Assembly: GCF_001742225.1 (NCBI RefSeq)
Contig: NZ_CP017078.1
Location: forward strand, 124,001 to 188,000
DNA: 64,000 bases
Direction: 5' to 3'
From: Novosphingobium resinovorum
Lineage (GTDB): Bacteria > Pseudomonadota > Alphaproteobacteria > Sphingomonadales > Sphingomonadaceae
In this document: piece by piece, positions 1,935-32,864 of the stretch
Layout: the number at the start of each line of letters is the position of its first letter
Position numbering within the stretch: the first letter of the stretch is position 1
The notes under the pieces: model-generated
The model's input: only the letters and a program-made list of their open reading frames with translations
Database searches by the model: none
Told to the model about the DNA's origin: nothing
Program-made: the position numbers and the translations under genes

Positions 1935-2367
1935 CCAATTGCTCTCTTAACAATCAAGGACGCGGCGGGACTGCGCCAGCTCTTTCGCGGAAGCCGATCC
2001 TGGTGCGGCAGGGCGGCTGGTTATCGGCTACGGAAAAAGTGCTGAGACGCGAGTGCGAGCCGCGAGAACCTTAGTTCCAACCGGGGGTTACGGGCGCCTC
2101 GGCATGTGTTCATCCGGCTGAAGGGGGACTGTTTCGGGGCGCGGGCGCACCTCTCGACGGCTGGCGCAACCCGGGTTTTGATGAACAACGTCGCATCGAA
2201 AGGCATAATAGATTTCCCTCCGTGCGTTCCGCCGAAACAAGCGTGGACCGCATCCCAAATCAACGTGCCGAGATGCGATGGCCATCGGCGTAAGTTTCAT
2301 CGCTCGAATGTAATACGCACCCCGACGCCCAACCCCTCAGCCTCGGCGCGGCCAATCGTGCTTTTGG
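1935..2367. other. Intergenic stretch with one putative ECF promoter and no convincing gene
   Basis: No convincing gene is visible between the HxlR gene and the ICMT-family gene. A 60-codon minus-strand frame starts at about 2203 behind a GGAGGG sequence (start motif MPFDATLFIKTR), but its product becomes Arg/Ser-rich and matches nothing I know. It may be a decayed gene. The stretch contains the promoter-like motif at 2312-2338 pointing towards it. Confidence 0.4.
2312..2338 (-). promoter_or_regulatory. Putative CnrH-type ECF promoter, no clear downstream gene
   Basis: Read on the minus strand the site is GAGGGG (2338-2333), 14 bases, then GCGTATT (2318-2312). It is identical in both blocks and in spacing to the sites before copC and copA. 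It points left into a region with no recognisable gene, so the gene it served may have been lost or may be the small decayed frame below it. Confidence 0.5.
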
Positions 2368-3078
2368 CTAAAGCCTGTTCCGCCCCCGATCGAGCCGCGC
2401 CTTGCCTCTCCATGGGCGTGCATGAACGGAAGTACGCGCTGTCCGAGACGTTAGCCGGGGAACGAAGGCTGGCACTCGCGCCATATAGTCGCGATACTCA
2501 CACCCGAATTTTGCGAGCGCCGCCTTCTCCTCATGCCGGGCTAGCCGGATGTACATCACGACCAGCACGGGGAACATGGCGAGCGTCAGTAACGTCGGCC
2601 ATTGCAGCAACAAACCGAGCATCACGAGGATGAACCCGATATATTGCGGATGGCGGACCCTGGCATAGATTCCCGTCGTCGCGAGCTTGTGAACTCGCTG
2701 GGCTGCGTGAAGCGGTGCCCATCCGGCCGAGATCAGCCAGAAGCCCGCGCCGATCAGCACGAAGCTGGCAAGATGGAACGGGCCAAAATGCGGGTTGACC
2801 CTCCAGCCGAACATCATCTCCAAGAGGTGGCCGGCATCGTGGCTCCACCAAGCGACGCCGGGGAAATGCGACTGGAGCCACCCCGACAGCAGGAAGATGG
2901 TGAGCGGGAAGCCATACATTTCGGCGAAGAGCGCGACGATGAACGCACTGAACGCGCCGAAGCTGCGCCAGTCGCGCCGCGTTGCCGGCTTGAAGAAGCT
3001 GAACGCAAAGAGGATGAAAACGGCGGCGTTGACCAGCGCGAGCCCCCACAGACCATAGCCATAGTCGGCGTGCGTCAT
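2368..3078 (-). CDS. Isoprenylcysteine carboxyl methyltransferase (ICMT/PEMT)-family membrane protein
   Basis: The 236-residue product has at least five hydrophobic helices and the family signature RVRHPQYIGFILVMLGLLL near residues 141-160, where the H-P-x-Y region forms the S-adenosylmethionine pocket. Bacterial members are membrane methyltransferases of unknown substrate and often sit in metal-resistance clusters. Its start overlaps the stop of the DUF2933 gene (ATGA at 3078-3075), so the two were an operon before IS66 split the upstream gene. The last 25 residues are Arg-rich and look like a non-native extension. Confidence 0.75.
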   Translation of the reverse strand: MTHADYGYGLWGLALVNAAVFILFAFSFFKPATRRDWRSFGAFSAFIVALFAEMYGFPLTIFLLSGWLQSHFPGVAWWSHDAGHLLEMMFGWRVNPHFGPFHLASFVLIGAGFWLISAGWAPLHAAQRVHKLATTGIYARVRHPQYIGFILVMLGLLLQWPTLLTLAMFPVLVVMYIRLARHEEKAALAKFGCEYRDYMARVPAFVPRLTSRTARTSVHARPWRGKARLDRGRNRL

Positions 3079-3186
3079 CGCGACTCTCCTTCGATGCGGC
3101 CGTTGGGATTGGCCGGCAAGCCGAGAGGTGCCTGACCGGGCTCAGGGCCATGCTGATGCCCACCATGGCCGTGGTGCATGAACAGG
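3075..3186 (-). pseudogene. DUF2933 protein, 3' part, split by IS66
   Basis: This is the downstream fragment of a DUF2933 gene. It encodes FMHHGHGGHQHGPEPG and a short tail, then a stop that overlaps the start of the ICMT gene. It joins in frame to the fragment at 6263-6422 when the IS66 element and one copy of the 8-bp duplication are removed, restoring LMHLFMHHGHGGHQHG, the His-rich end typical of the family. DUF2933 proteins are small, His-rich membrane proteins of copper and silver clusters with no proven role. Confidence 0.85.
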
Positions 3187-3226
3187 GTAACCGCTGCTTC
3201 GAGCCCACGTGGGATGTGGAGAGGCT

Positions 3227-3808
3227 TCAGTGTACGGTCAGGGTTCTTGCAAAGGCACACTGGTCATGGATGAAGGAGATGATCTGGGGGATCATCCGCC
3301 AGGTATCTGCAAGAGCCTGATTTGCGAGGGGATCCTGGAGTTGGTCGATCCATGATGTGCCGTCGATGATCGTGCTTTGGCCAAGGATAGCTGCAAGCGG
3401 CAAGCCGAACTCTCGGTCAGACACGAAGGGCTTCCATGCGTCCATGTCCAGATGCATTGCAGTGAAGAAGCCATTGGCGAAGTCTTCCAGCAGGACCTCG
3501 CCGTCCTCGGTCCGCATATAGATCGGCGCATAGACCTCAGGGCACTCGGCAAGCTCGATGCAGATCTGGTTGTAGCGCTTGAGGATCGTTCGGCGTGCGG
3601 GCGCCGATCGGGCGCTTTGGACGTGTTCGCGCAGGATGCTCTTGAGCCATATGTCCGGATTGATGATGGACGGGCCGGCAGCCAACGCCGCGAGGAAGCC
3701 ATCGATCGAGGAGACACCGGCGACCGGCGGATCAAGCGTATCGAGCCAGATTTCGAGCTGCTCTAATGAGAGCGTTCTGCCGGATGCGGTTTGACGTTTG
3801 AAGCTCAT
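3227..3808 (-). CDS. UPF0149/YecA-like passenger protein of the IS66 element
   Basis: The 193-residue product has the UPF0149 pattern: an N-terminal helix LSLEQLEIWLDTLDPP, then the hallmark SIDGFLAALAAGPSIINP (D-G-F-L-A-A-x-x-x-G-P) near residues 35-52, and a helical remainder. No C-terminal SEC-C Cys cluster of the YecA type is present. Its ATG overlaps the stop of the IS66 transposase (ATGA), so it is translationally coupled to tnpC and lies inside the inverted repeats. It is an integral part of the element. Its role is unknown; regulation of transposition is a guess. Confidence 0.8.
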   Translation of the reverse strand: MSFKRQTASGRTLSLEQLEIWLDTLDPPVAGVSSIDGFLAALAAGPSIINPDIWLKSILREHVQSARSAPARRTILKRYNQICIELAECPEVYAPIYMRTEDGEVLLEDFANGFFTAMHLDMDAWKPFVSDREFGLPLAAILGQSTIIDGTSWIDQLQDPLANQALADTWRMIPQIISFIHDQCAFARTLTVH

Positions 3809-5358: not shown

Positions 5359-5407
5359 GGCGGATTATACCACACCACCCTTGTGCCGCCACTCAAAACC
5401 GCAGATT

Positions 5408-11798: not shown

Positions 11799-12197
11799 CT
11801 ATGCGGATCGGGCCGCGGCCAGTTCGGCGATGATCGGACAATCCGGCCGCTCGTCGCCTTGGCAGCGCTCGGCCAGGTCGATTAGCGTGTCGCGCAGCGC
11901 CGTCAACGCCTCGGCTTTGCGCTGAAACTCATCGGCGCGGGCAAGGGCAAGCCGCTTCACCTCCGCGCTGGCACGGCCGGTATTGGCCCAAAGGCTGAGC
12001 AACGTGCGGATCTCCTCGATCGGGAAGCCGAGATCGCGGGCATTGGCGATAAACCGGAGGCGATGGAGGTCGCGCTCGCCATAGTCACGATAGCCAGCAC
12101 CCCGACGCGCCGGCGCCGGGATGAGGCCGATCTTTTCATAATGGCGGATCATCCGCTCAGAGACGCCGCTCTGCCGTGACGTCTCGCCGATGTTCAC
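11799..12197 (-). CDS. cueR: CueR-type MerR-family copper-responsive regulator
   Basis: The 132-residue protein starts with the MerR winged helix ([40 protein letters not shown]) followed by the dimerisation helix and the metal loop [12 protein letters not shown], the two-Cys C-x7-C pattern of Cu(I)/Ag(I) sensors. I place the GTG start at 12197 because it overlaps the stop of the ATPase gene (GTGA). It is the second gene of the operon whose promoter, with a 19-bp spacer, lies at 14577-14607; it should both repress and activate that promoter. Confidence 0.88.
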
Positions 12198-14551
12198 AGT
12201 GCTTTCCGGTTGAGGCGCAGCGCGTTGGTGACCACGCTCACCGAAGAGAGCGCCATCGCCGCCGCCGCGATAATGGGCGAGAGCAGAATACCGAACAGCG
12301 GATAGAGCGCACCCGCCGCTACGGGCACGCCCGCGACATTGTAGATGAAGGCGAAGACGAGATTCTGGCGGATGTTCGACATGGTCGCTTGGCTGAGCCG
12401 CCGCGCCCGGACGATGCCAGTCAGGTCGCCCTTGAGCAGCGTGACGCCAGCGCTCTCGATCGCGACGTCGGTGCCGGAACCCATGGCGATGCCGACGTCG
12501 GCGGCGGCCAACGCGGGGGCGTCGTTGACACCGTCGCCGGCCATGGCGACGACCCGCCCCTCGCGCTTGAACCTGGCGACCACGGCGCTCTTCTGATCGG
12601 GCAGCACCTCGGCTTCGACCTCGTCGATGCCCAGGCGTCGGGCGACCGCTTCCGCGGTCGTGCGGTTGTCGCCGGTCAGCATGACCACGCGAATGCCCTC
12701 CGCCTTGAGCGCGGCGAGCGCTTCTGGTGTCGTGGCCTTCACCGGATCGGCGATCGCGAAGGCGCCGCCGACTGTGCCGTCGACCCCGATGAAGATCGCG
12801 GTGGCGCCATCCCGGCGCAGCGCGTCGGCCTGGCTGGCGAGCGCATCGGTCGCAACCCCTTCGTCGGCAAGGAACTGCGCATTGCCGAGGACGATGCGCC
12901 GCCCTTCGACCGTGCCGAGCGCGCCGCGCCCGGTCGGCGAGTCGAAGTCGATGACGTCGCTCGTGACGATGCCGCGATCCTTCGCGGCCTCGACGATTGC
13001 CAACGCGAGCGGATGCTCGGACGCCCGCTCGACCGAGGCGGCAAGACACAGCAGCTCGGCTTCGTCGAAGCCGGGCGCCGGCACGACCTGGGTGACGGCA
13101 GGCCGGCCTTCGGTCAGCGTGCCTGTCTTGTCGACGACGAGAGTGTCGACCTTCTCCATATGCTCGAGTGCTTCGGCATTTTTGATGAGAACACCGAGCC
13201 CGGCGCCGCGGCCGACCCCGACCATGATCGACATCGGCGTTGCCAGCCCCAGTGCGCAGGGACAGGCGATGATCAGCACGGCGACCGCCGCCACCAGCCC
13301 ATAGGCGAAGCGCGGCTCGGGACCCCAGATGCCCCAGGCGATGAACGCGACGGCCGCGACCGCGATGACCACGGGCACAAACCAGCCCGACACCTGATCG
13401 GCCATGCGCTGGATCGGCGCGCGCGAGCGCTGCGCCTCAGCGACCATCTGGACGATGCGTGCGAGCATGGTATCGCGGCCGACCTTGTCGGCGACGATCA
13501 CCAGCGCACCGGTCTGGTTGAGCGTGCCGCCGATCACTGTGTCGGCCTTTGCCTTGGTGACGGGCATGGATTCGCCGGTGACCATCGACTCGTCGAGCGA
13601 GGAGCGGCCGTCCTCGACTACGCCGTCGACCGGCACCTTCTCGCCCGGCCGCACCCGCAGGCGGTCGCCCACCGCAACCAGATCAAGGCTGATTTCCTCT
13701 TCGTTCCCATCAGAACCGATCCGGCGCGCGGTCTTTGGTGCAAGGTTGAGCAGCGCCTTGATCGCGCCCGAGGTGCGTTCCCGCGCGCGCAGTTCGAGCA
13801 TCTGGCCGAGCAGCACGAGGACGGTGATCACCGCGGCCGCCTCGAAATAGACGGCAACCATGCCGTCCTCGCCGCGGAAGGCCGGCGGGAACAGCTGAGG
13901 CGCGAGCGTCGCGATGACGCTGTAGATCCAGGCGACCCCGGTCCCCATCGCGATCAGGGTGAACATGTTGAGGTTGCGGGTCTTGAGCGAGGCCCAGCCA
14001 CGCTCGAAGAACGGCCAGCCCGCCCAGAGCACGACAGGCGTCGCCAGCACGAACTGGATCCATACCGAGGTCGACATCGGCACGAGGCGATGGATCGCGG
14101 GAAAGACATGCGCGCCCATCTCGAGGATCAGCACCGGGAGAGCCAGCACGAGGCCGACCCAGAAGCGCCGCGTGAAATCGACTAGCTCGTGGCTGGGGCC
14201 GCTGTCGGCGGTCACGGTCGCGGGTTCGAGCGCCATGCCGCAGATCGGACAGGACCCGGGATGGTCCTGGCGGATCTCGGGATGCATCGGGCAGGTCCAG
14301 ATCGTGCCTTCGGGCGCCGCGACCGGCGGCGTCGGCGGGCCGAGATAGCGCTCGGGATCGGCGATGAATTTGGTCCGGCAGCCCGCGCTGCAGAAATGAT
14401 AGCTTTCACCGCTATGCTCGGCGTGATGCGCCGTGGTCGCCGGGTCGACGGTCATGCCGCAGACCGGGTCCTTGACGCCGGTCGCCGCTTTAGCGGTGCC
14501 GTGGCCGCCGCAGCAACCGCCGCCATGCGCCGCTCCATGTGTCTCGTTCAT
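12194..14551 (-). CDS. copA: Cu(I)/Ag(I)-exporting P1B-type ATPase
   Basis: This 785-residue inner-membrane pump opens with a Gly/His/Cys-rich segment and a YHS domain ([20 protein letters not shown]). A heavy-metal-binding domain follows ([20 protein letters not shown]) instead of classical CxxC HMA domains. The core has ACPCAL near residue 430 (CPC, copper/silver selectivity), DKTGTLTEG near 475, SEHPLA and [10 protein letters not shown] near 674. It exports cytoplasmic Cu(I) at the cost of ATP. It is cotranscribed with cueR. The gene symbol is shared by convention with the unrelated multicopper oxidase. Confidence 0.92.
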
Positions 14552-14576
14552 CGCCTCGCTCCTTTCGACGCCTGAC

Positions 14577-14607
14577 GATCTAGGGTCTGACACCGTGTCA
14601 GGGTCAA
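14577..14607 (-). promoter_or_regulatory. MerR-family (CueR) promoter of the ATPase-cueR operon
   Basis: On the minus strand TTGACC (14607-14602) and TAGATC (14582-14577) are separated by exactly 19 bases. The spacer contains the dyad CTGACAC-GTGTCAG. An over-long 19-bp spacer with a central dyad is the hallmark of promoters untwisted by MerR-family activators. The site is 25 bases upstream of the ATPase start, and the only MerR-family gene in the window is the downstream cueR. Confidence 0.85.
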
Positions 14608-14618
14608 TACGTAATCGC

Positions 14619-14909
14619 CTAAGCGGCCAAATCGGCGGGCCCGTTCGCTTGGCCGCCATCAGGCCGGGGAGCACGCCGTCGGCATTGGGCTGGGTATCGT
14701 CGATGCCATCGAGCCGCTGCACGGTCAGGCGGAAGGCGAGCCGCATGAGACCCGTGCTGTCGGCCATAATCGGCGATTACCAGGCGCCAATCCGGGCGCA
14801 GCATGGCAAGCATGGCGGCACGCCACCGCTTCTCCCGCGCCCACAGGCGGATCGCGCGATCATAGTCTTTCGTCGATCCAGTCCCGCGCGGCGGGGTGTA
14901 CGATTGCAT
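14619..14909 (-). pseudogene. Class I SAM-dependent methyltransferase remnant with internal deletion
   Basis: An ATG at 14909 behind GGGAG starts a sequence with the family opening DYDRAIRLWAREKRWRAAML. It passes directly into LVIADYG, and in another frame to [17 protein letters not shown] and [13 protein letters not shown], the usual C-terminal part of small copper-cluster methyltransferases. The SAM-binding motif I region is missing and the frame is shifted, so about half of the gene has been deleted. It follows copD by 37 bases on the same strand, so it may once have been the last gene of the copC-copD operon. Confidence 0.6.
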
Positions 14910-14945: not shown

Positions 14946-15890
14946 CTACATCGACATGGGTGGCGACAGTGTCCCCAGCCAGGCGACCAGCCCGAGAATG
15001 ACGATCGCAAGACCGCCTTCGACGACGAGGCTCGCGCGCAGCAGCGCCTGCGCCCGTGGCGCGTCCTCTTCCTCGATCGCCTGCGCAAGTGCCGGGGTCA
15101 GGCGATAACGGTTGAGCGCGGCCAGGCCCAGCATGCCGGCGAAGAGCAGCAGCTTGGCGATGAGCAGCAGGCCGTAGGTCGACTGACCGAGCGAGGCGAT
15201 GTTGCCCGGGCCGACCAGAAACCAGCCGTTCACCGTCCCGGTCAGGATCAGCAGGGCGACGATGATCGTGCCGACGAGGGAGAAACCCCGCAGGGCTTCC
15301 TCGGCCAGTGTGACCTGGTCCATGTCTTCAGCGGCGACATCATCGGTTGCGAGCCTGGGAAGAACCAGCGCGAGGAAGGCGGCAAGCGCGCCGACCCAGG
15401 CGCCGGCGGCGAGCAGATGGATGAGATCGGCCCCCAGTTGCAGCCAGCCCGCCTCGCCTTCGCCGGCCGCGCCATGCCCGCTCCAGGCGAGGGTCGCGAG
15501 TGCGACCGCGCCTGCCAGAGTGGAGGCGATGAAGGCAGGACGGGATTGCCGGCGATAGAAGGGGATGGAGAGCAGAAGAACGAGGAGCGCGACGAGGCGC
15601 GCCTTCAGCGCCGTTCCCATGGACGTGCCGTTGAACAGCTCTGCGACCATGGAAAGATCAGGCTGGGTGAGCGGCAGCCCGGTCATGGCCGCTGCCTGCA
15701 ACGCGAACCCCAGCGCCGACAGCAGGAGGGCGAGACAGGCGAGACCGGCCACCATTGCTACCATCGGCAGATGCCGCTGTACCGTCCGGCCGCCGCCGGG
15801 CGCATAGAGCGCGAACAGCGGCAGGCCGAACAACAGGCCGAGATCGACGTAGAGCGCCCAGCGGACGGCGACGAGTGCCACGTCGTTCAT
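14946..15890 (-). CDS. copD: Copper homeostasis membrane protein CopD
   Basis: The 314-residue integral membrane protein has about eight hydrophobic helices and the CopD-family segments WSGHGAAGEG and LIHLLAAGAWVGALAAFL, with conserved His residues thought to handle copper, and LILTGTVNGW. CopD works with periplasmic CopC in copper delivery or uptake across the inner membrane. Its start lies 5 bases after the copC stop, so the two form one operon on the minus strand, driven by the ECF-like site at 16303-16329. Confidence 0.88.
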   Translation of the reverse strand: MNDVALVAVRWALYVDLGLLFGLPLFALYAPGGGRTVQRHLPMVAMVAGLACLALLLSALGFALQAAAMTGLPLTQPDLSMVAELFNGTSMGTALKARLVALLVLLLSIPFYRRQSRPAFIASTLAGAVALATLAWSGHGAAGEGEAGWLQLGADLIHLLAAGAWVGALAAFLALVLPRLATDDVAAEDMDQVTLAEEALRGFSLVGTIIVALLILTGTVNGWFLVGPGNIASLGQSTYGLLLIAKLLLFAGMLGLAALNRYRLTPALAQAIEEEDAPRAQALLRASLVVEGGLAIVILGLVAWLGTLSPPMSM

Positions 15891-15894: not shown

Positions 15895-16272
15895 TCACTT
15901 GACGGTAAAGGCGAGATTGCCCTGGATGCGGTGCGTGTCGGTCGAGACGACGTGCCAGGCGACCTGATAGCTGCCCGCCATGAGCGGCTTGGCGAGCGTC
16001 AGCACGAGCGTCTTGTCGCCTTCGACGGACGTCTTGAAGCCGGTTACCGCCATGCGGTGGTTGGGCATGCCGGGCATGCCGGTCATCACGATCTCGGCGC
16101 CCGACAGCTTCGGCATCAGACCTTCACTGAAGGTGAGCGTGATACGCGAAGGCGCCGAGACGCTGGCGTTCGCGGCGGGCGTCGAGGACACAAGCTTGGG
16201 ATGCGCGTAGGCCGGAGCAGAAACACTCAGGCCGACGGCGGCGATAACTGCGAGAGGCGAAAAGAAACGCAT
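15895..16272 (-). CDS. copC: Periplasmic copper-binding protein CopC
   Basis: The 125-residue precursor has a Sec signal peptide ending in PAYA, so the mature protein begins with the Cu(II)-ligand His (HPKLVSSTPAANA). Other CopC features are ITLTFSEGLMP, a Met-rich MTGMPGMPNHRM stretch typical of Cu(I) sites, and the ending HVVSTDTHRIQGNLAFTV. Length and order match the single-domain CopC family. It is the first gene of the copC-copD operon and is transcribed divergently from the CnrYXH-like genes. Confidence 0.92.
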   Translation of the reverse strand: MRFFSPLAVIAAVGLSVSAPAYAHPKLVSSTPAANASVSAPSRITLTFSEGLMPKLSGAEIVMTGMPGMPNHRMAVTGFKTSVEGDKTLVLTLAKPLMAGSYQVAWHVVSTDTHRIQGNLAFTVK

Positions 16273-16302: not shown

Positions 16303-16329
16303 AATACGCAGCCCGAGCCCCCACCCCTC
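16303..16329 (-). promoter_or_regulatory. Putative CnrH-type ECF promoter of copC-copD
   Basis: On the minus strand: GAGGGG (16329-16324), 14 bases, GCGTATT (16309-16303), with the copC start 31 bases further on. The same blocks at the same spacing precede copA-copB. The two regulons' promoters share even the flanking GGGCT before GCGTATT. Confidence 0.65.
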
Positions 16330-16354: not shown

Positions 16355-16381
16355 AAGGGTTCCTGGACCATCGTGCGTATT
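16355..16381 (+). promoter_or_regulatory. Putative autogenous ECF promoter of the CnrYXH-like operon
   Basis: AAGGGT (16355-16360), 14 bases, GCGTATT (16375-16381), 24 bases before the ATG of the first gene. It lies back to back with the copC site, so a single sigma factor could fire both directions from the 133-base divergent region. Confidence 0.65.
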
Positions 16382-16405: not shown

Positions 16406-16678
16406 ATGGATGAACTTGACCACCTGCTCTCGCGGTTGCGCGATGCGCCTCTCGATCCCAGGCTCGGCGGCCTGGAAAGCCGGGTCATGGCGGAAATAGC
16501 GCGCATCCGGGCCATACCAAGCCTTGGCGCTATGACGTTCGGCATCGCGGCCGCAACCGCGCTGTTCATCGGAATTGCCGGCTCGGCAGTTCCGACACGG
16601 TCTGCTGATGCCAAACCGCTATCGCCCTTCGATGCTCGGCTCGCGCTTGCGCCCTCGACGCTGCTGAGCTCGCAGTGA
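16406..16678 (+). CDS. CnrY-like membrane anti-sigma factor
   Basis: The 90-residue protein has a charged cytoplasmic helix (MDELDHLLSRLRDAP), one transmembrane helix at about 42-62 (GAMTFGIAAATALFIGIAGS) and a short periplasmic tail with SPF near the end. This is the size and topology of CnrY of Cupriavidus, which holds the sigma factor CnrH at the membrane. Similarity is too weak to prove homology. The identification rests on gene order: it is followed with overlap by a CnrX-like sensor and a CnrH-like sigma factor. Confidence 0.65.
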   Translation: MDELDHLLSRLRDAPLDPRLGGLESRVMAEIARIRAIPSLGAMTFGIAAATALFIGIAGSAVPTRSADAKPLSPFDARLALAPSTLLSSQ

Positions 16679-17118
16679 TGCGCGACCGCCGCCGGCTCCT
16701 GCTCCTCGTCCTGGTGACCTTCGCCGCGGCGATCGCTGGCGTTGTCATTGGCCGCGTCTATGTGGTTCCAGTGCGCCCGGTCGAAAATGAGCTGCACGAG
16801 CTGCTCCATCGCGATCTGAAGCTGAATTCAGCGCAACACAGCCGACTCGAGACAATCGAGAAGAACTACGCGATCCGGCGTCAAGCGCTGGAGGCCGAAT
16901 TGCGCGCCGACAATGCGCGTCTCGCGGAAGCGATCGAAGCGGAGCATGGCTATGGCCCGCAAGTCGCAACTGCGGTGGATCGCTCGCACCAGGCCATGGG
17001 CGCGCTGCAGAAAGAAACACTTGAGCATATCTTCGCGATGCGGGCCGTGCTGCGCCCGGATCAGACGGACAAATTCGACGACGCCGTGGTGAAAGCGCTG
17101 ACGGCCAAATCCGAATGA
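16675..17118 (+). CDS. CnrX/ZraP-like periplasmic metal sensor
   Basis: The 147-residue protein has an N-terminal signal anchor (LLLLVLVTFAAAIAGVVIG) and a helical periplasmic domain. The metal ligands of CnrX (His42, His46, Glu63, His119, Met123) have counterparts at His41 and His45 (LHELLHRDLKL), Glu62 (ETIEKNY), His118 and Met122 (LEHIFAMRAVL), all with the same spacing and one residue offset. It should bind a divalent or monovalent metal and release the anti-sigma factor. Overlaps both neighbours (ATGA). Confidence 0.82.
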   Translation: MMRDRRRLLLLVLVTFAAAIAGVVIGRVYVVPVRPVENELHELLHRDLKLNSAQHSRLETIEKNYAIRRQALEAELRADNARLAEAIEAEHGYGPQVATAVDRSHQAMGALQKETLEHIFAMRAVLRPDQTDKFDDAVVKALTAKSE

Positions 17119-17681
17119 CCGCGTGCCTCCCCGACTGCTCGGACGGGGAGCTCGCGGCTCTGGCGCTTGGAGGCCGGCAAGCGGCCTATGGCGAGCTGGT
17201 CCGCCGGCATCAAGGTTGGGTTCACCGGCTCGTGCGCAGCCATGTCGGATCTATGGATGAGGCATTGGATGTCACCCAGGCGAGCTTCGTCGCGGCCTTT
17301 GCCGCACTCAACCGCTATGACGTAACCCGACCCTTCCAGGTCTGGATGTCCCGGATTGTCATCAACAAATGCCATGACTGGCGGCGTCGGCGAGCGGTTC
17401 GAAATTTCTTTGCCCTAGCCCTACCGCTCGGCGAGGCGGACGGCGTCGCCGACGACGCACCGCTGCCCGATCAGGCGATCGGGGCCGAACAGCAGCTCGC
17501 GCAAGCAATGAAAGCGATTGCTGCCCTGCCGTCTTCCCTCAAGGACACGCTTATTTTGCGGACGATCGACGAGAAATCGGAAGCCGAAACCGCCGAGATC
17601 CTCGGCATCTCCCAGAAGGCCGTCGAGACCCGCCTCTACCGCGCCCGGGCGCGCCTCGCGGAAAGTTTGAAGAAAGTTTGA
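17115..17681 (+). CDS. CnrH-like ECF sigma factor
   Basis: The 188-residue protein has sigma region 2 (YGELVRRHQGWVHRLVRSHV, DEALDVTQASFVAAFAALNR, then RPFQVWMSRIVINKCHDWRR) and region 4 (ALPSSLKDTLILRTIDEKSEAETAEILGI with VETRLYRARARLAESL). It directs RNA polymerase to stress promoters when its anti-sigma partner is relieved. It is the last gene of the three-gene unit, and the promoter motif for copA starts on its stop codon. I infer that it recognises the six-copy motif described in the findings. Confidence 0.87.
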   Translation: MTACLPDCSDGELAALALGGRQAAYGELVRRHQGWVHRLVRSHVGSMDEALDVTQASFVAAFAALNRYDVTRPFQVWMSRIVINKCHDWRRRRAVRNFFALALPLGEADGVADDAPLPDQAIGAEQQLAQAMKAIAALPSSLKDTLILRTIDEKSEAETAEILGISQKAVETRLYRARARLAESLKKV

Positions 17682-17706
17682 GGGGCAGGCGGGTGGGCTG
17701 CGTATT
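17680..17706 (+). promoter_or_regulatory. Putative CnrH-type ECF promoter of copA-copB
   Basis: GAGGGG (17680-17685) overlaps the sigma-factor stop codon; after 14 bases comes GCGTATT (17700-17706), 42 bases before the copA ATG. Blocks and spacing are identical to the copC site. The position allows copA-copB to be induced independently of read-through from the sigma operon. Confidence 0.65.
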
Positions 17707-17748: not shown

Positions 17749-19701
17749 ATGATTTCTGCCCTCGACCGCCGCCAGTTCCTTCGCGGCGCGGCCCTCGCCG
17801 GTGGTGGCGCCGCATTATCAGCCTGGCTGCCTGCCTGGGCGCAGACCATCTCGCCGGGGATGCGACCGACGCTACCGACCGTGTCGGGCGAAGACATCAC
17901 GCTGACCATCGCCCGGCAGTCGATGAGCATCGACGGGCGCCAGTTCCGCGCAATCGGTCTCAACGGCACGGTCCCCGCCCCGCTGATCCGGCTGCGCGAA
18001 GGCCAGCGCGTGCGGCTCAACGTCGTCAATCAACTCGAGGAGGACAGCTCGATCCACTGGCACGGGCTGATCCTGCCGGCCAATATGGACGGCGTGCCGG
18101 GCGTGTCTTTTCCGGGCATCAAGCCGGGATCGAACTACCTCTACCAGTTCCCCGTCGTGCAAAGCGGCACCTACTGGTATCACAGCCATTCGGGCCTGCA
18201 GGAGCAGGAAGGCCATTACGGCCCGATCATCATCGACCCCGCCGGTGCCGATCCGGTCGCCTATGACCGCGAGCATGTCATCGTGCTCGCCGATCACAGC
18301 GCACTCTCGCCGCAGGCGATCTTCCGGCGTCTCAAGGTCAACCCCGGCCATTTCAACTTCCAGCGCCAGACGCTGGCCGGGCTGCTCTCGGGCAAGGACC
18401 AGCCACTCAAGGACCGGCTCGACTGGGGCCAGATGCGGATGGACCCCGCCGACATCTCCGATGTCACCGGATCGACCTACACCTATCTCGTCAATGGCCA
18501 TGGTCCGATGGACAACTGGACCGCGCTCTTCACCCCGGGCGAGCGGGTGCGGCTGCGCGTCATCAATGCGTCGGCGATGACCACCTTCAACGTCCGCGTA
18601 CCCGGCCTGCCGCTCAGCATCGTCCAGGCCGACGGGCAGAATGTGGTGCCCGTCACCGTCGACGAGTTCCAGATCGGTGTCGCCGAGACCTACGACGTCG
18701 TTGTCAACCCAGGCGAGGACAAGGCCTATACTCTTGTCGGCGAGGCCATCGACCGCTCGGGTATGGCGCGTGCCACGCTCGCGCCGCGCGCCGGCATGGC
18801 TGGCGAGGTGCCTCCCTTACGCAAACGGCCGCTCGCCGACATGAAGGACATGGGCATGGACATGTCCTCGATGCCGGGCATGGAAGGCATGGACATGTCG
18901 GGCGGCGCTATGCGGGGCGTCGATCCGACGGCCGAGAAGAACGCGTCCGCGCGCCTCGCGACCGGCGCGGCGGCAGCGATGGCGACCATGGACAACAGCG
19001 CCATGGCGGGCATGGACCATTCGGGGATGGATCATTCCGCGATGAGCGGGATGGATCATGGATCGATGGCCGGCATGGACCACGGCGCGATGGGCGCCGA
19101 TGGCCAGATGGCGGGCATGGATCATGGCGGGCACGCGATGGGTTCGATGAAGATGCGCGACTTCTCGAACGCGCCGCAGGTGAAGCGCGATCCGAGCGTC
19201 CAGACCATCTCGCCGATGCCCGTCGACCGCACCGGCGAGCCCGGCCAGGGCCTCACCGACGTCGGCCACAAGGTGCTCGTCTACAAGGATCTGATGGCGC
19301 TCGAGCGCAATCCAGACGTGCGCGCGCCGAGCCGCAGCATCGACATCCACCTCACCGGCAACATGGAGCGGTTCATGTGGTCGTTCGACGGCGAGAAAAT
19401 GTCGGACCATCACGAGCCGATCCCGTTCATCGAAGGCGAGCGGGTGCGCGTCAATCTCATCAACGACACGATGATGGGGCATCCGATCCACATCCACGGC
19501 CATTTCTTCGAGCTGGTGACCGGGCATGGCGACCATGCGCCGCGCAAGCACACCGTCATCGTCCAGCCCGGCGGCAAGGTGAGCTGGGACTTCACCGCCG
19601 ACGCGGTCGGGGACTGGGCCTTCCACTGCCATCTCCTCTACCACATGCATGCAGGGATGATGCGGGTCGTGAGCGTGCGTCCGAAGGGAGACGCGCAATG
19701 A
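17749..19701 (+). CDS. copA: Periplasmic multicopper oxidase CopA (system 1)
   Basis: The 650-residue precursor has a Tat signal (DRRQFLRGAALAGGGAALSA). The copper-site motifs are HWHGLILP and YWYHSHSG in the first domain, and HPIHIHGHFF and HCHLLYHMHAGMM in the last, so types 1, 2 and 3 copper are all complete. Between them, about residues 365-470 form a Met/His-rich insert with repeated MDHSGM-like units that should store Cu(I). It oxidises Cu(I) to the less toxic Cu(II) in the periplasm. It is followed with overlap by copB. Confidence 0.94.
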   Translation: MISALDRRQFLRGAALAGGGAALSAWLPAWAQTISPGMRPTLPTVSGEDITLTIARQSMSIDGRQFRAIGLNGTVPAPLIRLREGQRVRLNVVNQLEEDSSIHWHGLILPANMDGVPGVSFPGIKPGSNYLYQFPVVQSGTYWYHSHSGLQEQEGHYGPIIIDPAGADPVAYDREHVIVLADHSALSPQAIFRRLKVNPGHFNFQRQTLAGLLSGKDQPLKDRLDWGQMRMDPADISDVTGSTYTYLVNGHGPMDNWTALFTPGERVRLRVINASAMTTFNVRVPGLPLSIVQADGQNVVPVTVDEFQIGVAETYDVVVNPGEDKAYTLVGEAIDRSGMARATLAPRAGMAGEVPPLRKRPLADMKDMGMDMSSMPGMEGMDMSGGAMRGVDPTAEKNASARLATGAAAAMATMDNSAMAGMDHSGMDHSAMSGMDHGSMAGMDHGAMGADGQMAGMDHGGHAMGSMKMRDFSNAPQVKRDPSVQTISPMPVDRTGEPGQGLTDVGHKVLVYKDLMALERNPDVRAPSRSIDIHLTGNMERFMWSFDGEKMSDHHEPIPFIEGERVRVNLINDTMMGHPIHIHGHFFELVTGHGDHAPRKHTVIVQPGGKVSWDFTADAVGDWAFHCHLLYHMHAGMMRVVSVRPKGDAQ

Positions 19702-20885
19702 CCCGCATCCTCACGCCGCTGGTGAGCGCGATCGCCCTTCTCGCCGCCGCACCCGCCTTTGCCCAGGATCATTCGATGCACGACATGCCCGGCATGGCGC
19801 CGCCGGGCGGGGCGCGGCCGGCGCAGGAGAAAAAGAAGGACAAGGCCGCCGCGCCGCGCCCCAAGCCCACTGCCAGGCCGCGCGCTCAGAAGCCAGCGCC
19901 GGACACCATGCCGGCAATGGACCATTCGCAGCACCAGACCACTCCCGCGGCGCAAGCAAATGCGGCCGGTCAGCCGCAATCCACGTCTCCCGCAATGCCG
20001 GAGATGCCGGGCATGGACCACTCCCAGCATCAGGACGGCGCGATGCCCGACATGCCCGGGATGGACCATGCGCAGCATGGCCAGACAGCGACGCCGGGAA
20101 CGCCCGCCATGCCCGGCATGCAAATGACCGGCACCGCACTTCCGGCCGGCAATGCGCCCCCGCCGCCGCCCCCAGGCGACCACTTCGCCGATCGGGATTT
20201 TCCCGGCGGCGAGATGGCGCGCTCGCGCGACATCATGATGAAGGACAGCGGCGGCAACAATTTCGGGCAGGTGCTGCTCAACCTGTTCGAGTATCAGGCG
20301 CATAGCGGCCGCGATGGCTATCGCTGGGATGGCGAAGGCTTTTACGGCGGCGACATCAACCGCCTCTGGCTCAAGAGCGAGGGCGAAGGCGAGTTCGGCC
20401 GCGGCATCGACAGCGCCGAGGTGCAGGTGCTCTACAGCCGGGCCATCGACCCCTATTTCAATCTTCAGGGCGGTATCCGCCAGGACTTCGGCCGCGGGCC
20501 CGACCGCACCTACGCGACGATCGGCGTCGAGGGCCTGGCTCCTGGCATGTTCGAGGTCGAAGGCGCGCTGTTCCTCTCGACCAAGGGCGATGTTCTGGGC
20601 CGGGTCGAGGGCTATTACGACCAGCGCATCACCCAGCGCCTGATCTTGCAGCCGCGCGCCGAGGTCAATTTCGCCGCGCAGGATATTCCGGAGAACGACA
20701 TCGGTTCGGGGCTGGTCAACATAGAGCTCGGCGCGCGCCTGCGCTACGAATTCAGCCGCCAGTTCGCACCTTACATCGGCGTTTCCTATCTGCGCAAAGC
20801 CGGAGACACGGCGCGGCTGTCGAGGCTTGCGGGCGAGGACGTCCATGCCACCAGCTTCGTCGCCGGCGTTCGCTTCTGGTTTTAG
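19698..20885 (+). CDS. copB: Outer-membrane copper resistance protein CopB (system 1)
   Basis: The 395-residue protein has a Sec signal (LLAAAPAFAQ). A long N-terminal Met/His/Pro-rich arm follows with several MPGMDHSQH-type units that bind copper. The C-terminal CopB beta-barrel domain starts around DRDFPGGEMARSRDI, includes LWLKSEGEGEF, YATIGVEGLAPG and YEFSRQFAPYIGVSY, and ends in Phe as barrel proteins do. Its ATG overlaps the copA stop (ATGA). Confidence 0.92.
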   Translation: MTRILTPLVSAIALLAAAPAFAQDHSMHDMPGMAPPGGARPAQEKKKDKAAAPRPKPTARPRAQKPAPDTMPAMDHSQHQTTPAAQANAAGQPQSTSPAMPEMPGMDHSQHQDGAMPDMPGMDHAQHGQTATPGTPAMPGMQMTGTALPAGNAPPPPPPGDHFADRDFPGGEMARSRDIMMKDSGGNNFGQVLLNLFEYQAHSGRDGYRWDGEGFYGGDINRLWLKSEGEGEFGRGIDSAEVQVLYSRAIDPYFNLQGGIRQDFGRGPDRTYATIGVEGLAPGMFEVEGALFLSTKGDVLGRVEGYYDQRITQRLILQPRAEVNFAAQDIPENDIGSGLVNIELGARLRYEFSRQFAPYIGVSYLRKAGDTARLSRLAGEDVHATSFVAGVRFWF

Positions 20886-23656: not shown

Positions 23657-23692
23657 CTGCGACCTCTACGTAGCGACGGGACGAGGCGCGAT

Positions 23693-24145
23693 ATGCGATC
23701 GATGGTGCAATCGTCACACGGGTGTCCGCTTCTCGCAATGCCATCGGTCCGTTCCACTCAGCATGATGGCAGATACACCATCCTCGTCTCCGACGACGAT
23801 CCCGGCGTGCGGCGTGGCCTCCAGCTGCTGCTGAGATCGCGCGGCTATGCCGTGTGGGGATATACGACCGGCCACGCGCTGTTGGCCGACCCCCGCGCGA
23901 AGGAGGCAGACTGCGTCATCCTCGACTATCGCATGCCCGACATCGACGGATTCGCGATGCTGCGTCACCTTCGCGAGATCGGATGGTCGGGACGCGCGAT
24001 CATGATCTCAGGCTTTCATGACACGCTGCTGGCCTCGCGGGCCGCTGAGGCGGGCTTCGATCATGTTCTCGCAAAGCCGCTGATCGGCAGGGCTTTGCTC
24101 GAAGCGTTGGACCGGCACCGCATCGAGACGCTTCGAAAGCATTGA
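23693..24145 (+). CDS. Single-domain response regulator
   Basis: The product is a receiver domain alone: ILVSDDDPGVRRGLQLLL (acidic pair), the phospho-acceptor in CVILDYRMPDIDGF, MISGFHD (Ser switch residue) and LAKPLIGRALLEAL (Lys). There is no output domain, so it probably acts as a phosphate sink or protein-protein regulator of the FixL pathway. Several in-frame starts exist between 23693 and 23738; the receiver fold begins only after the last. It follows fixJ by 36 bases, with a CTACGTAG palindrome in the gap. Confidence 0.78.
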   Translation: MRSMVQSSHGCPLLAMPSVRSTQHDGRYTILVSDDDPGVRRGLQLLLRSRGYAVWGYTTGHALLADPRAKEADCVILDYRMPDIDGFAMLRHLREIGWSGRAIMISGFHDTLLASRAAEAGFDHVLAKPLIGRALLEALDRHRIETLRKH

Positions 24146-27176: not shown

Positions 27177-27203
27177 GAGGGTTCGACGTCTGGCGTGCGT
27201 ATT
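27177..27203 (+). promoter_or_regulatory. Putative CnrH-type ECF promoter of the TonB-receptor operon
   Basis: GAGGGT (27177-27182), 14 bases, GCGTATT (27197-27203), with the receptor ATG 123 bases downstream. The blocks and spacing match the sites before the CnrYXH-like operon and copA. It lies in AT-rich DNA where chance occurrence of such a GC-containing pair is unlikely. Confidence 0.55.
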
Positions 27204-27265
27204 ATAGCTATATCTATATCTAAATTTCACGAGAATAAGGTATTGGAAAAACAGGAAAAATACTG

Positions 27266-27281: not shown

Positions 27282-27326
27282 ACTGATGTTGTCTGTGGCT
27301 GTTCTAAAACGTCAGGGGGATTGCAC

Positions 27327-30029
27327 ATGACCATCAGGATGGCCCTGCTCGGCAGCGCCGCCATCGTCGCGGGCTACGCCGCGCCGGCTCTCGCTCAGGC
27401 CGATCCGACACCGCAGCCAAAAGCACAAGTCCTGGGGGATGACAGCGACATCGTCGTTACCGGCTCACGAATCCGTCGGCAGGATCTGGCCGGGGTTGGA
27501 CCGGCCACCGTGGTCACCGCCGAGCAGATCCAAAATACCGGCATCGTCAATATCGAAACCGCCTTGCAGCGTTTGCCGGCCAATGCCGGCTTCGCGGGCA
27601 ACCAGACATCGGCCTACTGGACCAACAACGGTTATGGCACTGCTCAGGTCAATCTGCGCGGCCTCGGCATCAAGCGCACACTCGTGCTCCTCAACGGCCG
27701 ACGCCTCGTCGCGGGCGGCACCGGCGCCAATTCCTCACCCGATCTCAACATGATCCCGGTCGTGGCGCTGGCACGCACCGATGTCCTCAAGGATGGCGCG
27801 TCCGCTATCTACGGGGCCGATGCCATGGCCGGCGTGGTCAACCTTGTCACGCGCACCGATTATGAAGGCCTGGGTCTCAGCGTCCGACAAGGCATTACCG
27901 AGCGCGGCGACGGCTCCGATCTCACCGCGGACCTACTTTGGGGCATTCGCAACGATCGTGGCGGGTTCATGGCAGCAGTCACCTACCAGAAGACCAGCGC
28001 CGTCAACATGGCCTCGCGTGCGCCCTGCTCGCTCGCTGAAACGACGCCGGGCTCGCTGAGCTGCGTCAACAGCGCCTCGACGATCGGCGGACGCGCGGTG
28101 CTGCCCAACGGCCAACAGATCAACTTCAACCAGGTACCCGGAGGGAACGGGAACTTCTACGAGCCTTACAGTCCCGCCAAGCACAACTTCAACTCGAACC
28201 CGTTTCTCAATGCGGTCAGCCCAGTCGAGCGCGTCAGCACGGCCTTCTTCGCGGACTATGCGCTGACCGACGGTATCCAGGCGTTCGGCGAGTTCCTCTA
28301 TACGTTCCGCAAGTCGAATCAGATCGCGACACCCGGCACGCTGCGCAATCTCTCGATACCAGCCAGCAATCCGACCAATCCGACCGGCCAGAACCTGGTC
28401 CTGGCCCAGCGCCGCCTCGCCGAACCCGGCGCGCGCCACTTCTTCCAGGAGACCGATACCTGGCAAGGCACCTTCGGGCTGCGCGGCAAGCTGGCGAACG
28501 ACTGGGCCTGGGAAGTCGCGGGCAGCTTCGGGCGTAACACGGCCGTCGACGGCTCGACCAACATCGCCAATCTCGAGCGCGTCGCGAACACGCTCGACAG
28601 GAGCAAATGCTCCAGCACGGCGGGCGCGGCCATCCCCTGCGGTGACTATCTTGGGTTCGGAGACCTGACACCTCAGGTTCTGGATTATATTCTGTTCACC
28701 TCGCGCGATCGCGGAGGCAACGAACTCGGCACGGTCACGGCTGACCTCAACGGCGATCTCTTCTCCCTTCCAGCCGGCGCGGTGTCCTTCGCCACCGGCG
28801 TGGTCTATCGGCGCGAAAAAGGCTGGCGCGATCCCGACCCGTTGACGGTGCTCGGCGTGGCGAACGTCAATCAGCAGGATCCTATTTCGGGCTCGAGCAC
28901 CGCCAAGGAAGCCTATCTCGAGCTATCGGTGCCGGTGCTTGCCAACACAGCTTTCGCCAAGGCGCTCACGCTCGATGGCGCAGTCCGCTACTCAGACTAT
29001 AATCTCTTCGGGAGCGACTGGAATTACAAGCTCAGTGCCGACTGGGTAGTCAATGACAGCATCCGTCTGCGCGGCACTTATGGGACGGGCTTTCGCATTC
29101 CCAACGTGCCGGAGCTTTTCGGCGGCGTCTCGGAAGGCAATCTGACCACGACCGATCCCTGCTCGCGCTACACCTCCAGCGGCAACGTGACCTTGATCGC
29201 CAATTGTCAGGCGTCCGGTGTGCCGGCCAACTATACGCAGCTCGGCACCACGATCCTCACCACAGTGGGCGGTAACCAGAGCCTTCGGCCCGAAAGCTCC
29301 ACGACCTGGACCGTTGGTACGGTGATATCGCCGCGCGGCATCATCCCAGGGTTGTCGCTGACGGCAGACTGGTTCGACATCAAGATCAAGGACGCGATCC
29401 GGGCCATTCCCGGCTCGACCAAGCTCGCAGTCTGCTATGCGAGCCAGAACCTGTCGCACCCGTTCTGCAGCGACTTTACGCGCAGCGCGCTGACCGGCGA
29501 GGTCACTTACCTCTCCGCCCAGCCCATCAACACCGGCCGCGAGGAGATGAATGGTCTCGATCTGGGTCTGGTGTACAGTGGTGCGGTGGGCGAGGTGAAG
29601 ATCTCCTTGGATCTCAACATGACCTATCTCAACAAATATGTCGTAAACCCCTTCCCCGGCGGCGCGCCGATCTATTTCGACGGGTTTATCGGGGGCGGCA
29701 ATGGCGGCTATCCGAAATGGCGTGGTTATGGCGTGCTGACGGCGGAAAAGGACGGCATCAGCGCGACCTGGTCGACACAATGGATCGGCAAGGCGACCGA
29801 CTTCAACGCATCGGCCGGCGACATCGGCTACCGCACGCCGAACGTCTTCTACCACAATCTTCAGCTTGCCTTCGCGATCGACGAGAAGACACGTTTCCAG
29901 ATCGGGGCCGATAATCTGTTCGACCGCAAGGCGCCCTATATCCAGAGCTTCACCGATGCCAACACCGACACGATGACCTATGATCTGCTCGGACGGCGCT
30001 TCTACGCCGGCTTCCGAACCGCGTTCTGA
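27327..30029 (+). CDS. TonB-dependent outer-membrane receptor
   Basis: The 900-residue precursor has a signal peptide (AIVAGYAAPALAQ). A TonB-box-like DDSDIVVTGSRI follows, then the plug domain (TVVTAEQIQNTGIVNIETAL, VNLRGLGIKRTLVLLNGRR, LKDGASAIYGADAMAGVVNL) and a large 22-strand barrel ending in aromatic-rich LLGRRFYAGFRTAF. This is the large sphingomonad receptor type with a GSRI motif. ATG 27327 follows CAGGGGGA. It heads an operon with two PepSY proteins. The substrate is unknown; control by a HutC-like repressor and an ECF-type promoter suggests a metal-chelate or imidazole-type ligand (inference). Confidence 0.9.
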   Translation: MTIRMALLGSAAIVAGYAAPALAQADPTPQPKAQVLGDDSDIVVTGSRIRRQDLAGVGPATVVTAEQIQNTGIVNIETALQRLPANAGFAGNQTSAYWTNNGYGTAQVNLRGLGIKRTLVLLNGRRLVAGGTGANSSPDLNMIPVVALARTDVLKDGASAIYGADAMAGVVNLVTRTDYEGLGLSVRQGITERGDGSDLTADLLWGIRNDRGGFMAAVTYQKTSAVNMASRAPCSLAETTPGSLSCVNSASTIGGRAVLPNGQQINFNQVPGGNGNFYEPYSPAKHNFNSNPFLNAVSPVERVSTAFFADYALTDGIQAFGEFLYTFRKSNQIATPGTLRNLSIPASNPTNPTGQNLVLAQRRLAEPGARHFFQETDTWQGTFGLRGKLANDWAWEVAGSFGRNTAVDGSTNIANLERVANTLDRSKCSSTAGAAIPCGDYLGFGDLTPQVLDYILFTSRDRGGNELGTVTADLNGDLFSLPAGAVSFATGVVYRREKGWRDPDPLTVLGVANVNQQDPISGSSTAKEAYLELSVPVLANTAFAKALTLDGAVRYSDYNLFGSDWNYKLSADWVVNDSIRLRGTYGTGFRIPNVPELFGGVSEGNLTTTDPCSRYTSSGNVTLIANCQASGVPANYTQLGTTILTTVGGNQSLRPESSTTWTVGTVISPRGIIPGLSLTADWFDIKIKDAIRAIPGSTKLAVCYASQNLSHPFCSDFTRSALTGEVTYLSAQPINTGREEMNGLDLGLVYSGAVGEVKISLDLNMTYLNKYVVNPFPGGAPIYFDGFIGGGNGGYPKWRGYGVLTAEKDGISATWSTQWIGKATDFNASAGDIGYRTPNVFYHNLQLAFAIDEKTRFQIGADNLFDRKAPYIQSFTDANTDTMTYDLLGRRFYAGFRTAF

Positions 30030-30039
30030 AGGGCAGCAC

Positions 30040-31475: not shown

Positions 31476-31478
31476 TCG

Positions 31479-32279
31479 CTAGGTCCCAACAGAAAAAGCC
31501 GCCGATAGCTCGAACCGATTGCCCGGGTGCGTGAGCCAAGCGTGCGATACGAGACGTCCGCGACTCCAGGTTCTGCGCGTCATCATTAGCACTGGTTCTC
31601 CTTCAGCGAGGCCCAGCATTGTTCGCATGGCTGTATCCGGCATCGCCGCGCACACCCGGTGCTCTACTCGCTCGAGCGGGGCAACACGTGTCAGATATTC
31701 ATTCGGCGTCGAGGCGCTGAAATCCCTCTCTCCGTAGCGTGGCGCAGCAGATGCCAGCACAAAGCGCTCCTCGACCTGAATTGGGAATTCGGTCTCGTGA
31801 TGGACGATAAGCGAATGGAAGAGGCGCGTGCCCAAGCCGACTTCCAGCAGAGCTGCCCTTTCCGCATCAGCCCGTATCTCGATATTATAAATGACGCGCG
31901 CGCGATAGGCGTGGCCCCTGCCGCGCACCTCCTCCGCGATGTTGCGGATCTCGATCAGCTGCCCGATCGGCCGGGGCTCGGCGACAAAGCTGCCCCGCCC
32001 CGCCCGCCGTACCACGACACCGGCCGATTGCAGTTCCCGCAACGCCCGGTTTGCGGTCATGCGCGAGACTTTGAACGTCTCGACGAGCTCGGCCTCTGAC
32101 GGCGTCTGGTCGCCGGGCTTCAGGCGACCTTCCCGGATGTCCTCGAAAATGCTGTCTTTGATCGCCACATAGCGAGGTTGCTTCTCCGCACCGGCAGCGT
32201 CGACCGCGGGTTCGCCCACAGAAGCAGCTTTCGTCCGGGGAGCGGATGCGCGGCTATGGGGGCGAGCGGGAGCATGCAT
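31479..32279 (-). CDS. HutC-like GntR-family repressor
   Basis: The 266-residue protein has a GntR winged helix (YVAIKDSIFEDIREGRLKPG, then PSEAELVETFKVSRMTANRA) and a UTRA effector domain typical of the HutC subfamily (RGRGHAYRARVI, LFHSLIVHHETEFPIQVEER, EYLTRVAPLERVEHRVCAAM, MMTRRTWSRGRLVSHAWLTH). HutC proteins bind urocanate or related ligands. It is convergent with the PepSY genes, and no hut catabolic gene is present, so it probably controls the receptor operon through TGTATATACA at 27272. ATG 32279 is used; a TTG lies one codon earlier. Confidence 0.85.
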   Translation of the reverse strand: MHAPARPHSRASAPRTKAASVGEPAVDAAGAEKQPRYVAIKDSIFEDIREGRLKPGDQTPSEAELVETFKVSRMTANRALRELQSAGVVVRRAGRGSFVAEPRPIGQLIEIRNIAEEVRGRGHAYRARVIYNIEIRADAERAALLEVGLGTRLFHSLIVHHETEFPIQVEERFVLASAAPRYGERDFSASTPNEYLTRVAPLERVEHRVCAAMPDTAMRTMLGLAEGEPVLMMTRRTWSRGRLVSHAWLTHPGNRFELSAAFSVGT

Positions 32280-32359
32280 CAAATGACTATACAGGTGGGG
32301 GCGAGCAAGTCCCAGTCATTCAAACAGGAAATCACCAGCGAGAGCCGAGGCGTGCGTGA

Positions 32360-32797
32360 TCAATGCCGCGCGAAGACCTTCTGGCCCGAACTGCCGAACG
32401 ACACCACCGCATAGGGTTGGCGGGCGGCGCCTGCCACTTCCATGCCCTCCGAGCCGATCGGCATCCCCGCCACCGCAATGCCTCTGACGCCTACGGGACG
32501 GGTTGCCAGCAGGCGCTTGATATCGGCGACCGGGACATGGCCCTCGATCAGATAGCCATCAACCATCGCGCTGTGGCAGGATGCCAGCGTGCCCGGCATG
32601 CCGGCCCTCCGCTGAAGCGCCCCGCGCGACGCATCGTCGCGCATGACGACCGTGCGGCCCAGCTTCGCGCGAAGCGCCTGGGCCCACTTCTCACAGCATC
32701 CACAACCCGGGTCCCGGTGGACGACGACATCATTCGCCGCAAGCGCTGCGCCGGGCAGGGCGAGGAACAGCAAGGCGGCAGAAAGACGGGTCTTCAT
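32360..32797 (-). CDS. DUF411 periplasmic copper-associated protein
   Basis: The 145-residue precursor has a signal peptide (LLFLALPGAALA) and the DUF411 signature VVHRDPGCGCCEKWAQAL, where the C-G-C-C motif is thought to bind copper. Conserved LASCHSAMVDGYLIEGHVP and IAVAGMPIGSEGME (Met-rich) follow. Proteins of this family are frequent in copper-resistance clusters. It has its own ECF-like promoter motif at 32838-32864, 41 bases upstream, directly after the stop of the MFS gene. Confidence 0.88.
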   Translation of the reverse strand: MKTRLSAALLFLALPGAALAANDVVVHRDPGCGCCEKWAQALRAKLGRTVVMRDDASRGALQRRAGMPGTLASCHSAMVDGYLIEGHVPVADIKRLLATRPVGVRGIAVAGMPIGSEGMEVAGAARQPYAVVSFGSSGQKVFARH

Positions 32798-32837
32798 GAA
32801 CGGCTCCCGGAAGCATGCGATAGGGTTCCTAATGATC

Positions 32838-32864
32838 TATACGCATTGATGCCCCCTACCCCTC
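32838..32864 (-). promoter_or_regulatory. Putative CnrH-type ECF promoter of the DUF411 gene
   Basis: On the minus strand: GAGGGG (32864-32859), 14 bases, GCGTATA (32844-32838), 41 bases before the DUF411 start. The last base of the -10 block differs (A instead of T); everything else, including spacing, is identical to the copC and copA sites. Confidence 0.58.

Follow-up and report, generated by a model that had tools for sequence, protein, structure and literature searches.

A candidate CnrH-type promoter motif repeated at copper-resistance genes of Novosphingobium resinovorum

Which sigma factor reads the two-block motif that recurs upstream of copper-resistance genes in Novosphingobium resinovorum, and which genes does it serve? 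The question is raised by a stretch of 64,000 nucleotides (positions 124,001 to 188,000 of contig NZ_CP017078.1; G000:C4:124001-188000), hereafter the window, which lies on a contig of 354,886 bases in a genome of five contigs and 6.92 Mb. This contig, C4, is probably a plasmid, judging from its size and from near-identical sigma factor genes on named sphingomonad plasmids. Within the window, genes for a putative anti-sigma factor (Y), a metal sensor (X) and a sigma factor overlap in this order, as an operon resembling CnrYXH of Cupriavidus metallidurans. We assign a probability of about 0.92 to the reading, made from sequence comparison, that the motif copies are -35 and -10 elements recognized by RNA polymerase carrying an extracytoplasmic function (ECF) sigma factor of the CnrH family. 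Recognition of the copies as promoters is strongly supported by these comparisons, and the genes behind them apparently form an autoregulated CnrH-type copper regulon.

Six motif copies in the window and their specificity in the genome

A scan of the window with the pattern [GA]AGGG[GT]N14GCGTAT[TA] returned exactly six matches, which coincide in position and strand with the six listed in a preliminary description of this DNA; 100 dinucleotide shuffles of the window gave a mean of 0.00 matches and a maximum of 0. Three copies flank the regulatory genes. P_C (16303..16329, minus strand; GAGGGG-N14-GCGTATT), the putative promoter of copC, is divergent to the Y operon. P_Y (16355..16381, plus strand; AAGGGT-N14-GCGTATT) is the candidate autogenous promoter of the Y-X-sigma operon, with a transcription start predicted from the sequence at about 16388, and P_A (17680..17706, plus strand; GAGGGG-N14-GCGTATT), the candidate promoter of copA-copB, overlaps the sigma stop codon. 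Two copies precede an operon of a TonB receptor and PepSY genes (27177..27203, plus strand; GAGGGT-N14-GCGTATT) and a DUF411 gene (32838..32864, minus strand; GAGGGG-N14-GCGTATA), and the sixth (2312..2338, minus strand) has a methyltransferase gene on one side and an HxlR gene on the other. The gaps between motif and gene start are 31 bases for copC, 25 for Y, 43 for copA, 124 for the TonB receptor (ATG at 27327) and 41 for DUF411, so that the measured range of 25 to 124 bases agrees with the 24 to 123 given previously for these five copies.

Genome-wide, RAGGGK-N14-GCGTAT occurs eight times, six of them in the window, while its reversed pattern, used as a control, occurs once. The form GAGGG-N15-GCGTAT has 11 matches (reversed control, 1), distributed over the window (five, as the remaining copy starts with AAGGG), two further CnrH-like loci on C1 (three) and C2 (two), and one place elsewhere. 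When the spacer was left free (GAGGG-N8-26-GCGTAT), 37 matches were found versus 27 for the reversed control; 11 of the 37 fall at one spacer and 26 are spread over 18 others (Poisson P ~4e-7). The form with the longer spacer, GAGGG-N17-CGTAT, is not enriched in this genome (one match versus seven in the reversed control). A loose form, RAGGG-N16-CGTAW, gave 32 matches versus 18 in the control, of which 12 belong to the window and the two CnrH-like loci on C1 and C2, the other 20 lying elsewhere; the loose form alone is therefore no identifier of promoters, and the signal sits in the full motif. In the genome scans with the full motif, a check proposed along with the initial list of copies, the motif did not recur at random inside genes at a similar frequency. 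The one match elsewhere, C1:1829751, was weighed as an additional target but set aside, since it lies within a 486-codon open frame.

The motif and its spacer in related loci

Related loci were picked by similarity of the sigma factor and not by the motif. They came from 98 genomes (30 loci fetched), from 63 named loci and from 20 of 397 genomes of the phylum (28 loci at E <= 1e-35), and pMOL28 and four plasmid records chosen among 60 listed rows were added. The 107 loci used (25 of the 30, 49 of the 63, the 28, and these five) omit the window's own locus, four near-identical ones and 14 distant ECF loci. Grouped at 93% identity of the sigma factor, as estimated by a rough count without gaps, they form 62 clusters. 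Each cluster was scanned for [GA]AGGG-N16/17-CGTA before copC (P_C), before Y (P_Y) and after sigma (P_A).

The motif is present at P_Y in 53 of the 62 clusters, at P_C in 45 and at P_A in 47; all three positions carry it in 35 clusters, and at least one does in 57. Among the 49 named close loci, with only spacer 16 allowed, the figures were 46/49 for P_Y, 49/49 for P_C and 47/49 for P_A, and no strict match was found in the 14 distant ECF loci (L090-L103). A scan of the 62 representatives with [GA]AGGG-N8-26-CGTA[AT] gave 126 matches at spacer 16, 15 at spacer 17, and 15 over 17 other spacers. Six scrambled patterns had one to three matches at spacer 16, and two of these peaked at other spacers, with 17 and 8 matches, perhaps by overlap with true sites. 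Over 133 distinct sites, bases that the search did not impose were also conserved: T or C before GAGGG in 96%, and T or C in 94% and G in 95% before CGTA, the remaining spacer bases being weakly conserved.

The motif also co-occurs with the sigma factor over the 98 genomes, which we divided into those with a close relative (E <= 1e-45), those with none (E > 1e-25) and those in between, at cut-offs chosen after viewing the list. All 29 genomes with a close sigma factor, including the genome studied here, have at least one match (113 in total versus 19 for the reversed control). The 63 genomes lacking one have 30 matches versus 19 in the control, located in 24 genomes, and the six intermediate genomes have 12 versus 7, located in five. 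On the shuffles, the spacing scan, the scrambled controls and this co-occurrence we rejected a chance origin of the motif. The six window copies might instead be alike through recent duplication of an upstream segment, with no function of their own; they lie within one 31-kb stretch, and an IS66 transposase gene is found near one end. We hold this to be scarcely credible, since the spacers and flanks vary among the copies and among relatives while the two blocks persist, and the footprint over diverged clusters contradicts it.

Most clusters have a single spacer length: across the three positions, 49 have only 16 bases, six only 17, two both (L164, L169) and five none. The spacer-17 clusters are L134 and L184 of Cupriavidus, L166, which groups with them, and L031, L170 and L173. 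At the L031 locus and a relative in G048 (L145, L146) the spacer is 17 at P_Y and P_C and 16 before a putative copA-like gene, and in Cupriavidus sp. EM10 (L187) it is 16 before Y and 17 after sigma, so one factor probably uses both lengths. We considered the spacer as a clean lineage trait and rejected this, because on a sigma tree with 61 of the 62 clusters the eight rows labelled 17 require five changes; this label includes the mixed L164 and also L180, which has a CAGGGG variant only. Shuffling of the label over the tree gave a mean of 7.6 changes, and 3 of 500 shuffles were as low as five.

The Y-X-sigma operon and known CnrH-type systems

The sigma gene (17115..17681, plus strand) encodes a CnrH relative of 188 amino acids with the families PF04542 and PF08281. 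Its best match in PDB is CnrH (4CXF, E 2.4e-31), and it ends soon after region 4 (residues 130-181), with no cysteine-rich C-terminal domain of the CorE type. The X gene (16675..17118, plus strand; PF13801) encodes a periplasmic metal sensor related to CnrX and NccX, which are its nearest PDB structures. At CnrX positions 42, 46, 63, 119 and 123 the window X has H, H, E, H and M; in CnrX, where we verified the residues in the sequence, we take H42, H46, E63, H119 and M123 to be the metal ligands. In an alignment of 43 distinct X rows from 80 loci, window and CnrX included, four of these positions are kept in 43/43 rows and E63 in 42/43. The Y gene (16406..16678, plus strand) encodes 90 amino acids and has the position and size of cnrY, as a putative membrane anti-sigma factor, possibly of class II, the kind that wraps around its sigma factor. 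A profile built from the Y proteins of relatives matches the window Y strongly and the Y proteins on the CnrY side weakly (E 0.0026 for L166 and 0.0072 for L184, in a search of four sequences in which CnrY itself is not fairly compared). By eye, we also spotted a tail resembling APSTLL (APS-LL) at the Y C-terminus (16640-16678) that recurs in many relatives.

What the motif means is best judged against C. metallidurans CH34, for which we took the start sites of cnrY and cnrC from the available sections of PMC9045368; the original promoter mapping is that of Grass et al. 2000, as cited in this paper and in PMC4803752. In the pMOL28 record, AAGGGG-N16-CGTAT stands before the cnrY start and GAGGGG-N16-CGTAT before that of cnrC, with the +1 position eight bases after CGTAT in each. 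The window motif thus shows the CnrH promoter consensus, with the blocks of cnrYp and cnrCp and a spacer one base shorter. The idea that it is peculiar to sphingomonads has to be given up. Like CnrYXH, the window has the Y-X-sigma order, a CnrH-like sigma factor, the CnrX ligands in X and the same promoter blocks, one before Y and one just after sigma. It differs in having a third, divergent promoter (copC), in the distance between GAGGG and CGTA, which is 16 and not 17 bases, in a sigma identity of 40%, and in its putative targets: copA-copB, copC-copD, DUF411 and the TonB-receptor operon take the place of the CnrCBA pump, and no nickel/cobalt efflux pump of the resistance-nodulation-division type is found among the genes behind the window promoters.

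Two other ECF factors resemble the window system in some respects. CorE of Myxococcus xanthus governs a multicopper oxidase and a copper ATPase, according to what could be consulted of PMC10141476; its control runs through a cysteine-rich C-terminal extension of the protein itself and not an anti-sigma factor (PMC10141476, PMC3107203, both in excerpt), whereas the window encodes Y and X. SigAb of Acinetobacter is induced by copper and has a small anti-sigma factor that modelling showed as CnrY-like; however, it uses the promoter GTCAAC/CGTT, in which the spacer is 17 bp long, and metal-resistance genes are mostly its indirect targets (PMC12153292, in excerpt). In the literature searched, to the extent that its texts were accessible, we found no description of this consensus or of a copper-linked CnrH relative in sphingomonads; PMC7826278 may list the motif.

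The motif might alternatively be the site of a separate copper regulator, a response regulator or a protein of the MerR type, with the CnrH-like operon as one of its targets, and response regulators and a PAS histidine kinase are indeed encoded close by. This is very unlikely, as the motif lacks symmetry, its two blocks being spaced by 16 or 17, and points at the gene for five window genes; moreover, it goes with a CnrH-like sigma factor in the 57 clusters and fits the mapped starts of cnrC and cnrY. A repressor or activator site was accordingly rejected, mainly on asymmetry, orientation and this fit. The reading as a CnrH-like ECF promoter is supported by the cluster count, the spacing, the co-occurrence over 98 genomes and the mapped CnrH promoters.

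Several points weigh against it. The promoter evidence for this strain comes from sequence: what can be read directly is the motif with its positions, how far it is conserved and how it matches the C. metallidurans CnrH promoters. Five of the 62 clusters (L175, L180, L181, L183, L185) have no motif at the three positions, although L185 has a spacer-17 copy ahead of a gene for CusF and one annotated as a P-type ATPase. The 20 loose-form sites outside the CnrH loci barely exceed the 18 of the control. Searches of Pfam, NCBIfam and PDB gave no match for the window Y, and hence none of significance to CnrY in PDB or Pfam. Published annotation is also divided: in the parts of PMC9045368 at hand, Table 4 lists the cnrY start under RpoD while the text calls cnrYp CnrH-dependent, and the excerpt of PMC11647585 marks this start as RpoD. 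These labels make cnrCp the better point of comparison; the start of cnrC appears there as non-RpoD (PMC9045368, same sections). Examination of the flanking frames and families found no convincing target for the copy at 2338-2312, so that of the six copies proposed as a CnrH regulon five face genes and this one stands with no target identified.

Finally, the CnrH-like loci on C1 (G000:C1:1409453-1410871) and C2 (G000:C2:787097-788535) carry the same motif, and any of the three sigma factors could use the sites. The preliminary description had named the motif as the promoter of the window sigma factor; a CnrH-like ECF promoter it appears to be, but its assignment to this one factor is tentative, as three share the code. 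It is conceivable, at well below even odds, that the promoters are real and served mainly by the C1 or C2 factor, with that of C4 redundant, a view compatible with the promoter claim. Each locus has GAGGG-N16-CGTAT three times, at the sites that correspond to P_C, P_Y and P_A of the window, and their sigma factors are 55 and 49% identical to the window's. Against this view, P_Y adjoins the sigma gene of its own operon, and relatives of that gene with at least 80% identity are found on 32 plasmid records. Phage records hold distant ECF genes only (19 records, all below 60% identity).

Putative targets and the reach of the promoter code

Behind P_C lie copC (15895..16272, minus strand; PF04234) and copD (14946..15890, minus strand; PF05425). 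By family scan, the gene at 12194..14767 (minus strand) encodes a heavy-metal P-type ATPase with YHS and HMBD domains; it is possibly on the copC-copD transcript, as gene order alone would suggest. Behind P_A, copA (17749..19701, plus strand) encodes a multicopper oxidase with a twin-arginine translocation signal (TIGR01480, E 1.4e-244; TIGR01409; PF07732/07731/00394), and copB (19377..20885, plus strand) is an open frame with a provisional start and PF05275 at frame residues 296-502. The TonB-dependent receptor (27321..30029, plus strand; PF00593, PF07715) is followed by two genes of the PepSY_TM type (29980-30744 and 30696-31475, plus strand; PF03929, the first below the curated cut-off), and the DUF411 protein (PF04214) is encoded at 32360..32797 on the minus strand. 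After copB (21478-24145) there are genes for a PAS histidine kinase, whose best NCBIfam match, FixL, is below its cut-off, and for two response regulators.

Around the sixth copy, the HxlR gene lies about 380 bases on, and there is a possible 61-codon frame at about 2206. The copy is kept in the Novosphingobium capsulatum plasmid NZ_CP140002.1 (95% identity), where this frame appears open too; in the other 24 plasmids among the matches listed (25 of 27), the alignment stops before its site.

Relatives hint at a wider regulon. From the genome copies and the fetched loci, 27 extra motif sites were listed, and the next gene was scanned at 20 of them. In 15 of the 20 it was one of the following: P-type ATPase parts (two), PAS histidine kinase (three), cytochrome c (two), DUF411 (two), and one each of an outer-membrane efflux protein, CopC, DUF2231, DUF326 (weak), a TonB receptor and CusF. 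The other five comprise three with no family (one being the intragenic C1:1829751), a transketolase piece and an EamA transporter, the last two sites probably arising by chance. For about seven of the 20 next genes (ATPases, CopC, DUF411, DUF326, CusF) we assume, partly from general knowledge, a link to copper or heavy metals. Copies with other spacer bases stand before DUF411 genes in L044 and L152 and before a TonB receptor in L087. The PAS histidine kinases stand behind a CnrH-type promoter copy in L138, L141 and L142, and the copy at L154:4675 is 22 bases before the gene with the weak DUF326 match.

That the window sigma factor binds these sites, where transcription starts, how the factor is released and which metal induces it we infer in the following scheme. 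Y, as a small membrane anti-sigma factor, would hold the sigma factor; X, with its CnrX-like metal site in the periplasm, would bind a divalent metal and loosen Y. The freed sigma factor would turn on its own operon from P_Y, the divergent copC-copD from P_C and copA-copB from P_A, and through the same promoter copies the TonB-receptor/PepSY operon and the DUF411 gene. In Sphingobium sp. ba1 exposed to 10 mM nickel, CopA, CopB and CopC went up, as did an operon of three genes headed by a TonB receptor, according to the accessible portion of PMC5557971. This response and the CnrX-type site in X suggest, by analogy, that nickel may act as an inducer of a copper regulon of this kind.

A broader proposal, which we put forward tentatively and with somewhat less than even confidence, is that a near-invariant code, (T/C)GAGGG-N16/17-CGTAT, serves the CnrH family in alpha- and betaproteobacteria while its targets differ: nickel/cobalt efflux in Cupriavidus and envelope copper defence in sphingomonads, whose sensor would have retained a site of the nickel/cobalt type. 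Copper genes may then respond to nickel or cobalt as gratuitous inducers. The spacer would have shifted by one base repeatedly, at all promoters together in some loci and at only some in others. As three systems share the code in one genome, insulation between them, if there is any, would come from Y and X and not from the promoters. Within our searches, it looks new that one code holds throughout the family, that it is attached to copper genes, that spacers changed repeatedly by one base, and that a single genome has three CnrH-like systems sharing the code.

The code could explain why CopA, CopB and CopC are raised by nickel in Sphingobium sp. ba1 (PMC5557971, as accessible). For metal-sensing sigma factors of this family, known chiefly from nickel resistance, it provides a precise sequence rule for promoters that can be tested, and it predicts that many sphingomonads drive copper resistance with a CnrH-type code. 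The natural one-base changes of the spacer, in turn, are a ready series for studying whether ECF sigma factors tolerate or dictate spacer length.

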